64,000 bases of DNA, from positions 372,001 through 436,000 of the forward strand of contig NZ_CP053841.1 of assembly GCF_013201895.1 (NCBI RefSeq), in the 5' to 3' direction. Source of the stretch: Campylobacter blaseri. Lineage in GTDB: Bacteria > Campylobacterota > Campylobacteria > Campylobacterales > Campylobacteraceae. A program made the position numbers and the translations under genes. The notes under the pieces were generated by a model. The model saw only the letters and a list, made by a program, of their open reading frames with translations, was not told the origin of the DNA and did no database searches. Shown here in pieces: positions 18,904 to 21,937 of this stretch; within the stretch, counting starts at the first letter, position 1; each line of letters opens with the position of its first letter.

Positions 18904-19545
18904 ATGGAAATTCTAAAAAGCACTAGTTTAACTAAGAGTTTTGACTATGAGCTTTTTAGAGATATTAATTTTTCTGTTAACGAGCGTGAAAGCGTTGCGT
19001 TAACAGGAGTTAGTGGGTGCGGTAAATCCACCTTTTTACACATTTTATGCACCCTTTTAAAACCAGATGATGGCGAAGTATTTTATAATAATAAATCAAT
19101 TTATTCTTTAAACTCAAGTGAGCTTCTTAAAATAAGAAAAGATCATTTTGGTATAATATTCCAATCACACTATCTTTTTAAAGGTTTTTCAGCAATAGAA
19201 AACATAGAGTTATCCACAATTCTTACAAAACAAAAAATAGATAACTTACTATTAGAGAGATTAAATATAGAAAATATTTTAAATCAAAAAGTAGGTGAGC
19301 TAAGTGGAGGACAACAACAACGAGTTAGTATAGCAAGAGTTTTAAGTAAAAAACCAAAGATTATTTTTGCAGATGAACCAACTGGAAATTTGGATAAAAA
19401 TACAGCAAATGATGCTATGAATGTTCTTTTTGAATATATAGATAAAAATAATGCAGCACTTATTTTAGTAACTCATGATGAAAATTTAGCAAAAGAGTGT
19501 ACTCGTACCTATAAACTAGAAAATAAAACTTTAAATTTGATTTAA
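18904..19545 (+). CDS. ABC transporter ATP-binding protein, LolD/FtsE-like
   Basis: A 213-aa ATPase subunit. Walker A is GVSGCGKST (about 35-43), the Q-loop lies in FGIIFQSHYLF, the signature is LSGGQQQRVSIARVL, Walker B is IIFADEPTGNLD and the H-loop is LVTHD. The overall pattern is closest to LolD/MacB-type ATPases. No permease is adjacent, so its partner is probably encoded elsewhere. It starts 2 bp after tsf and seems to be carried in that operon. In C. jejuni I recall the same neighbour followed by fliR, which is missing here. Confidence 0.85.
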   Translation: MEILKSTSLTKSFDYELFRDINFSVNERESVALTGVSGCGKSTFLHILCTLLKPDDGEVFYNNKSIYSLNSSELLKIRKDHFGIIFQSHYLFKGFSAIENIELSTILTKQKIDNLLLERLNIENILNQKVGELSGGQQQRVSIARVLSKKPKIIFADEPTGNLDKNTANDAMNVLFEYIDKNNAALILVTHDENLAKECTRTYKLENKTLNLI

Positions 19546-19625
19546 AATAGATAAAAACTAAGCAATAACTAATAGAAAATATCATAAAATTGACAAAGAG
19601 ATGTGATTTCTAAAAGGAGAGGGCA

Positions 19626-21326
19626 ATGGATATTTTTGTAGATAGTCAAAATCAAGCTATATTATCAATAGTTGATCTTTGTTGTGACAGACTTAATTAT
19701 AATTTAGTTAGTGATATAAGTAAAGCTGATTTTATAATAAAAGATTCTGATGGTTTAGATGTAATTAGTAATTTTGATTTAACAAAAACACTTTTTATAC
19801 TGCCTAAAAAATTATTAAATGAAGCCCAAGTCAGGTATAAAATTTCAAAACCTTTCTTGCCCACAAAATTAATAGAGGTTTTAAGGGAATTTAAACTAGA
19901 GCTAGAAAAAACACCAGACAGTATAAAAGAGATAAATACCATTATAAATGAAATTGATGAGCTTGATGACTCTTTTCAGGATACTCAAAAGATAGATGAT
20001 TTTATGCCCTTAGAAGATTTAGCAGATAAATTTGATAAAAAAATAGAAGAAAAAAATAAAGAATCAGATAATAATATAGATTATAAAATCCTTGAAGAGG
20101 ATTTTTATTTAGATGATAGTTTGCCTCTTGAGGATCTAGTAAAAAAACTTGACATAGAAGAAACAGAAGATGAAGACCAGAGCTCCTTTGAAATTTTAAA
20201 AACAGATGAACTTGATAATTTTGAATTAGATGAAGACATACCACTGGAGGATTTAGCAGACAAACTTGGTATAAAAGATGACGAGTTAAAACTAGATGAA
20301 GAGGACAGTCTTAAACTAGATGATGATATATTTAGTGAAGAAGATAAAGATAGTTTAGATATTGCTAAAGACTTAGATCTCGATGATCTTATAGAAGACA
20401 ACAAAGAAGATGATAATTTAGATATCAATAAAGATTTAGCAGACAAACTTGGTATAAAAGATGACGAGTTAAAACTAGATGAAGAGGACAGTCTTAAACT
20501 AGATGATGATATATTTAGTGAAGAAGATAAAGATAGTTTAGATATTGCTAAAGACTTAGATCTCGATGATCTTATAGAAGACAACAAAGAAGATGATAAT
20601 TTAGATATCAATAAAGATTTAGCAGACAAACTTGGTATAAAAGATGACGAGTTAAAACTAGATGAAGAGGACAGTCTTAAACTAGATGATGATATATTTA
20701 GTGAAGAAGATAAAGATAGTTTAGATATTGCTAAAGACTTAGATCTCGATGATCTTATAGAAGACAACAAAGAAGATGATAATTTAGATATCAATAAAGA
20801 TTTAGCAGACAAACTTGGTATAAAAGATGACGAGTTAAAACTAGATGAAGAGGACAGTCTTAAACTAGATGATGATATATTTAGTGAAGAAGATAAAGAT
20901 AGTTTAGATATTGCTAAAGACTTAGATCTCGATGATCTTATAGAAGACAACAAAGAAGATGATAATTTAGATATCAATAAAGATTTAGCAGACAAACTTG
21001 GTATAAAAGATGACGATAAAAAAGAGGACAAAGTGTCTGTTGAAATTTTAGCAGAAGAGCTAAAAAAAGGGTTAGAAAACAATCTTAGCTTAACTCAGAA
21101 AGATTTATCTAAAAAAAAGAAGAAAAAAGAGGAAAAAAAGCTTAAAAAACAAATAGATAAAAATAATTTAGACAAAAAAGAAGAGACAACAGAAGAGAAA
21201 GTTAAAGAAAAAATTGAAACCAAATTAAATGATGCTATTGTAGATGCTTTAAGTAGTTCAAAATTAAAAGAGGCCTTAAAGGATTTAGATATAAATATTG
21301 AAATTTCTTTTAAGGATAAAAAATAG
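19626..21326 (+). CDS. Highly acidic repeat protein with degenerate receiver-like N-terminus
   Basis: A 566-aa soluble protein of unknown function, positional counterpart of the 'highly acidic protein' upstream of gmk in C. jejuni. Residues 1-92 have the alternating strand/helix pattern of a response-regulator receiver, ending in K75-P76-F77 and a helix-like LPTKLIEVLREF, but the usual acidic phosphorylation pocket is not evident. Residues 100-208 are acidic with short motifs such as MPLEDLADKFD, LPLEDLVKKLD and IPLEDLADKLG. Residues 209-452 are four identical 61-aa units (183 bp each) plus a partial fifth. A Lys-rich block and a helical C-terminus (about 480-566) follow. No signal peptide or membrane segment. 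GGAGAGG precedes the ATG. The last base overlaps gmk. Role unknown. Confidence 0.8.
   Translation: MDIFVDSQNQAILSIVDLCCDRLNYNLVSDISKADFIIKDSDGLDVISNFDLTKTLFILPKKLLNEAQVRYKISKPFLPTKLIEVLREFKLELEKTPDSIKEINTIINEIDELDDSFQDTQKIDDFMPLEDLADKFDKKIEEKNKESDNNIDYKILEEDFYLDDSLPLEDLVKKLDIEETEDEDQSSFEILKTDELDNFELDEDIPLEDLADKLGIKDDELKLDEEDSLKLDDDIFSEEDKDSLDIAKDLDLDDLIEDNKEDDNLDINKDLADKLGIKDDELKLDEEDSLKLDDDIFSEEDKDSLDIAKDLDLDDLIEDNKEDDNLDINKDLADKLGIKDDELKLDEEDSLKLDDDIFSEEDKDSLDIAKDLDLDDLIEDNKEDDNLDINKDLADKLGIKDDELKLDEEDSLKLDDDIFSEEDKDSLDIAKDLDLDDLIEDNKEDDNLDINKDLADKLGIKDDDKKEDKVSVEILAEELKKGLENNLSLTQKDLSKKKKKKEEKKLKKQIDKNNLDKKEETTEEKVKEKIETKLNDAIVDALSSSKLKEALKDLDINIEISFKDKK
20250..21015 (+). repeat. Tandem array of four identical 183-bp units plus a partial fifth
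   Basis: Units start at 20250, 20433, 20616, 20799 and 20982, spaced exactly 183 bp; by eye the four complete copies show no base differences. The fifth copy breaks off after about 34 bases (GATGACGA then diverges). 183 is a multiple of 3, so gain or loss of units keeps the acidic protein in frame. The opposite strand is also open across the array, an artefact of the repeat composition. Confidence 0.97.
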
Positions 21327-21937
21327 TGAACAAAGGTCAGATTTTAGTAGTTTCTGGACCAAGTGGCAGTGGAAAAAGTACACTTATACAAAAACTTATG
21401 AAAGAAGAAGAGAATATATATTTTTCCATCTCTAACACAACAAGAGAGATTAGAAGCGGAGAAAAACACGGAGTTAACTACTATTATGTAAGCGAAGATG
21501 AATTTAAGCAAGGTATTGAAAAAGAGCAGTTTTTGGAGTGGGCATTAGTTCACAAAAATTATTATGGAACATCTTTAAAGCCTGCTATGGAAGCGTTGGA
21601 AAAAGGAAAAATTGTAATTTTTGATATAGATGTTCAAGGCTACAATATAGTAAAAGAAAAATTTAAAGATGATATAGTCTCTGTTTTTATAACGACAAGA
21701 AATAAAAAAGACCTTGAGACTAGATTAAATTCAAGAAAAACTGAAAACAAAGATGTGATTGAAAAAAGAATTATGAATGCAGTTGGCGAGATGGAGCATA
21801 TAAAAGAGTATGATTATCTTATAATAAATGATGACTTAGATATCTCTTATAGTGCTTTTAAGTCAATTTTTAATTCAATGAAATATAAAACAGCGTATTT
21901 AAATTTACGCAATGTTATAGATGATTGGATATATTAA
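21326..21937 (+). CDS. gmk: Guanylate kinase
   Basis: A 203-aa enzyme that phosphorylates GMP to GDP. The P-loop is VSGPSGSGKST, followed by the GMP-binding SNTTREIRSGEKHGVNYYYV, EWALVHKNYYGTS and the lid RLNSRKTE. Start is GTG at 21326, sharing its G with the stop of the acidic-protein gene (TAGTG), so translation is probably coupled. The tatA gene follows 22 bp later. guaB, which makes the GMP precursor XMP, lies at the right end of the window. Confidence 0.97.
   Translation: MNKGQILVVSGPSGSGKSTLIQKLMKEEENIYFSISNTTREIRSGEKHGVNYYYVSEDEFKQGIEKEQFLEWALVHKNYYGTSLKPAMEALEKGKIVIFDIDVQGYNIVKEKFKDDIVSVFITTRNKKDLETRLNSRKTENKDVIEKRIMNAVGEMEHIKEYDYLIINDDLDISYSAFKSIFNSMKYKTAYLNLRNVIDDWIY

Follow-up and report, generated by a model that had tools for sequence, protein, structure and literature searches.

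A ChePep orthologue with a 183-bp repeat array is kept in a Campylobacterota genus without flagellar and chemotaxis marker genes

The window analysed here, a stretch of 64,000 nucleotides from Campylobacter blaseri, harbors a gene which, judging by its synteny 5' of gmk, its N-terminal profile and its conserved C-terminus, is the orthologue of ChePep, the chemotaxis regulator of Campylobacterota (PMC9665402, PMC11237671, PMC3561388), and chePep is kept intact in a genus devoid of FliR, CheW and CheZ (as well as of FlhF in the six genomes tested). As the gene has survived intact where the tested flagellar and steering genes are missing, a second role of ChePep, so far unrecognised, is very probable. 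ChePep, which is restricted to Campylobacterota, has been described in no role other than chemotaxis regulation, and how it works is said to be poorly understood. Overall, the best explanation, and a probable one, is an orphaned ChePep operating as a scaffold or tether with a variable acidic linker and a recent repeat expansion. The role of the gene, left blank in the original prediction, can now be approached from this identity and its linkage to gmk across the phylum.

The open reading frame (566 codons, ATG start, AGGAG upstream) encodes, in this order, an N-terminus resembling a degenerate receiver, an acidic linker that carries PLEDLA motifs, the 183-bp array and a lysine-rich C-terminal region (Table 1); it is flanked by the gene of an ABC-transporter ATPase on the 5' side and by gmk on the 3' side. 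The lysine-rich stretch, noted at the outset, and the conserved C-terminal segment are separate features, both of which are present. The latter comprises the last 45 residues, with a typical pattern LKxxLKxMxIxIxISFxDK in the family comparison, and its structure is predicted with low confidence (pLDDT 68). Pfam matches of the protein to PEX-2N and HTH_10 were rejected as artefacts of repeat composition.

Table 1. Features of the ChePep-type gene and its surroundings (window positions).
Feature	Coordinates	Strand	Basis
ABC-transporter ATPase, upstream neighbour, conserved	18904..19545	+	
80-bp gap, site of fliR in flagellate relatives; its 3' end is the ribosome-binding site	19546..19625	+	
ChePep-type gene, 566 aa	19626..21326	+	ORF, orthologues and gmk adjacency
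Predicted receiver-like domain, residues 1-95; signature K75-P76-F77-L78-P79; acid-pair positions S7/Q8; phosphoacceptor position D40; Thr/Ser position P60	19626..19910	+	
Conserved helix following the receiver, residues 98-119, ..EINTIINEIDEL..; no variation at E109 and I110 within the genus	19917..19982	+	
Motif copy 1, PLEDLADKF	20007..20033	+	sequence
Motif copy 2, PLEDLVKKL; P167 nearly invariant in the genus	20124..20150	+	
Motif copy 3, PLEDLADKL; repeat unit 1 begins with its second half	20241..20267	+	
183-bp repeat unit 1	20250..20432	+	
183-bp repeat unit 2, identical	20433..20615	+	
183-bp repeat unit 3, identical	20616..20798	+	
183-bp repeat unit 4, identical	20799..20981	+	
Partial fifth unit, 35 bp, identical	20982..21016	+	
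Lys-rich stretch (LSKKKKKKEEKKLKK..)	21105..21180	+	sequence
Conserved C-terminal segment, LKEALKDLDINIEISFKDKK here; predicted helices and extended tail, low confidence	21189..21323	+	
gmk (guanylate kinase); GTG start shares the final base of the ChePep stop; neighbour conserved phylum-wide	21326..21937	+	

The assignment to ChePep draws on gene order and on profile comparison. When the whole protein was used as the query, no contig matched, its acidic patterns being unspecific; an alignment of the N-termini worked as the query. Since a single N-terminal profile might also catch other receivers, adjacency to gmk was checked and scored stretch by stretch, some stretches ending before gmk. The chePep gene was located directly 5' of gmk in the window's genus, flagellate Campylobacter, Nitratiruptor, a Helicobacteraceae genome, Sulfurovaceae and two other FliR-less groups. 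In flagellate Campylobacter, fliR lies just 5' of chePep, and this fliR is lost in the window's genus. The ChePep genes of H. pylori (HP0322) and C. jejuni (Cj1178c) sit beside gmk at the equivalent place. In profile-profile comparison (hhalign), the N-termini of the genus aligned with those of the flagellates at E 7e-24 and with those of the remaining lineages at E 2e-20, and the C-terminal segment is likewise conserved with other ChePep proteins. As the gene is the orthologue of ChePep and linked to gmk phylum-wide, the location among translation and nucleotide genes described in the original prediction is ancestral.

The window protein did not match the NCBIfam equivalog model of ChePep (NF041272, cut-off 650 bits). 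However, five of the six flagellate Campylobacter members gave no match to this model at any listed level either, the sixth reaching only E 6.9; hence, the model defines the equivalog and not the wider family. A Helicobacteraceae member (L055) matches it at 9.7e-5, which links the family to the named model indirectly. Since CheW, CheZ and FliR are missing from the window genome, the gene is best regarded as an orthologue of ChePep and not as its functional equivalog. It resembles the H. pylori (HP0322) and C. jejuni (CJJ81176_1193) proteins in the receiver-like N-terminus, the acidic low-complexity linker, the linkage to gmk, the conserved C-terminal segment and the confinement to Campylobacterota. 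It differs from them in that its genus lacks the flagellar and chemotaxis markers and the partner CheZ is deleted; moreover, the phosphoacceptor is not invariant in this genus, an array of D-x-P-L motifs is present and the window gene has undergone the 183-bp repeat expansion.

Profile searches in the 14 genomes of the window's genus revealed neither FliR nor CheW, and a sensitive local profile, built because the Pfam CheZ model is too weak for Campylobacter, found no CheZ in the same 14. FlhF did not exceed the cut-off in any of the six genomes of the genus tested, and the weaker matches were rejected, since they stem from the GTPase domain common to Ffh/FtsY-like proteins. With positive controls included, the same searches recover FliR, CheW, CheZ and FlhF in almost every flagellate genus of the family. 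By contrast, chePep is present as an open frame in 13 of the 14 genomes, the exception being a fragmented assembly. This picture agrees with published observations: C. portucalensis, a member of the genus, is non-motile and lacks a flagellum under the electron microscope (PMC6953823), and the gracilis/hominis/ureolyticus clade, as well as Sulfurovum/Nitratifractor, have lost all flagellar and chemosensory genes (PMC9321776).

In the phylum sample, the N-terminal profile matched in 295 of 298 genomes and FliR was found in 263; among the 35 FliR-less genomes, 33 had an N-terminal match (24 of these at E < 1e-10). Fifteen FliR-less genomes were derived by comparing the list of genomes with an N-terminal match with that of the FliR search. 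At the FliR-less loci inspected, gmk follows immediately 3' in nearly all cases, the exceptions being L063 and L072. The latter (the best match of G082) and the secondary matches L073-L075 were rejected, being other proteins or lacking gmk. At L063 (1489-1989, G240), the ChePep-type frame of a FliR-less genome extends into a MutS2-like gene of convergent orientation, and gmk does not adjoin it; the pair is broken in this one lineage. In a gmk tree, a second FliR-less genus (g10) stands apart from the window's genus on supported branches, although the tree is built from one short gene; therefore, at least three separate losses are likely, i.e., in the window's genus, in g10 and in the Sulfurovaceae-type f3 together with f7/g53. 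The names Sulfurovaceae (f3) and Campylobacteraceae (f1) are putative and were assigned from the published pattern of loss and gene content.

In flagellate Campylobacter, CheZ has a start resembling that of FliM, a WPPPPP segment, a central region and the catalytic DIHRQKIERVINVM helix. The genus g10, of the same family, lacks FliR and CheW but keeps chePep; there, a CheZ remnant of 124-132 aa resides beside trhP/U32, reduced to the central KFPNIxQF region, both the catalytic helix and the FliM-like N-terminus being gone. According to Lertsethtakarn et al. 2015, the central part of H. pylori CheZ reportedly serves as the polar localisation signal, and CheZ is said to bind ChePep directly. The genus g10 is like the polar CheZ-ChePep complex of H. 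pylori in keeping ChePep and the CheZ central region, and unlike it in the missing CheZ parts, whereas the window's genus is without any CheZ. The surviving fragment points to which part of CheZ remains important when CheY is not involved. The gene trhP/U32 is the standard neighbour of cheZ (PMC9321776); near this syntenic locus, no CheZ remnant was found in six genomes of the window's genus, trhP/U32 itself being present in five of the six stretches. The truncated loci of g10 were recorded at L084 637-1035 (-), L085, L086, L090 and L098 11990-13659. Another decayed CheZ was encountered at L088 309-836 (G018, 57% complete, no FliR detected), where a 175-aa CheZ-like protein has a FliM-like start and the catalytic DIHRQ is changed to NTNGQ.

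The head of the protein (residues 1-95) is predicted to adopt a receiver-like fold, as anticipated in the original prediction, which had also pointed out the lack of a clear phosphorylation pocket alongside the preserved K75-P76-F77. An AlphaFold2 model of residues 1-121 made with 11 sequences displays a compact, confident alpha/beta fold (about 94 pLDDT over most of residues 1-90, blocks at 89-97). In the Foldseek comparison with solved structures, receivers (DctD, CpxR, KdpE, CheY and others) make up most of the best 50 matches, with TM scores mostly of 0.5-0.6 and E from 3e-4; a profile built from 16 members of the family aligns with solved response regulators along the entire domain (E 5e-6), although a Pfam scan of the ChePep-type protein yielded no receiver match. 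Of the receiver hallmarks, the K-P pair of strand 5 is shared, and K75-P76-F77 together with P79 are invariant across 26 aligned family sequences. In contrast to genuine receivers, the acid pair is replaced (S7/Q8 in the window; N with N/S/D/Q among flagellates), proline mostly takes the Thr/Ser position in the family (P60 in the window) and the alpha2/alpha3 region is shortened. The phosphorylation pocket is thus lost, though D40 and K75 are kept in the window; the phosphoacceptor Asp is found in 14 of 14 flagellates vs. 9 of 12 members of the window's genus. The head seems to be under purifying selection, since amino-acid changes are rarer than synonymous ones (pN 0.005 vs. pS 0.037, with few changes overall).

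The linker (residues 96-521) is strongly acidic, with 39% D/E and a net charge of about -104. The run of LEDLADKLG-type motifs described initially is indeed there, with three copies upstream of the array or at its start and a DLADKLG in each 183-bp unit, which encodes DLADKLGIKDDELKLDEEDSLKLDDDIFSEEDKDSLDIAKDLDLDDLIEDNKEDDNLDINK (61 aa). The motif is no general feature of Campylobacterota: [DE]-x-P-[LIV]-x-x-hydrophobic is present in 11 of the 13 members of the genus, with as many as eight copies, vs. none of six flagellate Campylobacter (Fisher p 0.001, a guide only, because the sequences are related), so it is largely specific to the window's genus. The four identical repeats, earlier recognised by eye, proved exact: the period of 183 is perfect over 20250-21016, i.e., 767 bp and 4.19 copies with 0 mismatch (TRF score 1534, 100% matches). 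The array is the sole long-period one within the window, it cannot be a product of chance, and its copy number is given as assembled (the genome is one contig), with the caveat that assembly may miscount identical repeats. The perfect identity of the copies supports a recent expansion, as already proposed in the original prediction; the array would be an in-frame extension of the putative tether and probably arose by slippage or unequal exchange.

Between species, the linker varies enormously in length and evolves fast. In two close species, both gene ends are 97-99% identical at the DNA level, whereas the linker has pN 0.23, pS 0.44 and 89 gap codons. Recent duplications are also seen in other ChePep orthologues (12 bp x 21.8 and 6.9, 79 bp and 140 bp), all with different units; therefore, the window array reflects a general tendency, of which it is the largest example encountered. 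The 12-bp arrays, perfect or near-perfect and coding for EENI/EENV, belong to a flagellate Campylobacter orthologue (L041 530-612, 6.9 copies, and 970-1230, 21.8 copies), which is a candidate for strain variation. Between the close species of L005 and L006 (1501 to the gene end), the synonymous divergence of both ends amounts to only pS 0.04-0.09, vs. 0.32 in tsf and 0.44 in the linker; this points either to a sweep or recombination affecting the ends or to replacement of the linker.

By extrapolation from H. pylori, ChePep could act in the cytoplasm, probably at the pole, as a scaffold or tether, which is slightly more likely than not. The receiver-like head, for which the usual kind of phosphorylation is not possible, would offer one partner a docking site on the conserved K-P-F-L-P face; the long, disordered and strongly acidic linker would bind, through its repeated D-x-P-L-x-x-hydrophobic motifs, a client gained or switched in the window's genus; the conserved C-terminal segment may be responsible for binding of a second partner or for oligomerisation. 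In swimming relatives, ChePep brings CheZ to the pole with no need of the typical chemotaxis proteins. In line with that, CheZ localisation in H. pylori depends on ChePep but not on CheA or other typical chemotaxis proteins (PMC7750401; PMC11237671). In the window's genus, with the CheZ client gone, another client would have to hold chePep under selection. The 183-bp repeats, amplified in frame via slippage or unequal exchange, would then provide a longer tether with more DLADKLG half-motifs, i.e., a change in spacer and valency and not a separate function.

Other reasons for the retention of the gene have to be weighed. Considering that gmk is adjacent phylum-wide and that the chePep stop and the gmk start overlap or abut in the window and in most members of the genus, chePep might be kept mainly to deliver ribosomes to gmk, the protein itself mattering little. 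This is unlikely in view of the same residues and motifs conserved at both protein ends over the phylum, the scarcity of amino-acid changes relative to synonymous ones in the head, and the retention of a long, costly linker where coupling alone would be compatible with a short leader frame. The persistence of the gmk neighbour even where fliR and the flagellum were lost could also mean that, throughout Campylobacterota, ChePep works with guanylate kinase as its partner or regulator, chemotaxis being one output. That idea appears equally improbable: adjacency is its one argument, no fusion was seen, and cheY-prmA and cheZ-trhP are conserved pairs lacking a functional relation (PMC9321776).

The view of ChePep as an evolutionary relic, decaying since the loss of chemotaxis and accumulating repeats under relaxed constraint, could appeal to the hypervariable linker and to the phosphoacceptor, which is not invariant in the genus; still, it is disfavoured and holds little credence, given open frames in 13 genomes, the invariant K-P-F-x-P, the conserved C-terminus, the genus-specific motif and the keeping of chePep in other FliR-less lineages as well, while CheZ, CheW, FlhF and FliR are gone. 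The chance that the array is a contingency locus, its strain-variable copy number tuning the ChePep-type protein, seems just as slim. The perfect identity over 767 bp, the 12-bp arrays of the flagellate Campylobacter orthologue (21.8 and 6.9 copies) and the recent duplications in others speak for it; however, different species have unrelated repeat units and thus only the tendency in common, and the unit is in frame, so variation would change the length rather than switch expression.

The scaffold or tether reading admits a broader version, which is rather tentative and given somewhat less than even weight: ChePep may not be a chemotaxis protein fundamentally, but a phylum-wide scaffold, older or broader in role, serving CheZ in swimmers and other clients in the several lineages without flagella, with the D-x-P-L array of the genus as the client site. 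Naturally flagellum-less keepers of chePep uncouple the core function of ChePep from chemotaxis, making it directly addressable in a background free of motility phenotypes.

As to its repeats, the window gene resembles bacterial proteins with VNTR-like in-frame repeats in having identical tandem units with a length that is a multiple of three; it differs in that the protein is predicted to be cytoplasmic and scaffold-like and is known here from one strain. Repeats of another kind were noticed in C. gastrosuis (L047 659-3013, minus strand), where a gene divergent from fliR encodes a 784-aa FecR-like protein with a long Lys/Glu/Ala-rich region of nested 105- and 210-bp repeats.
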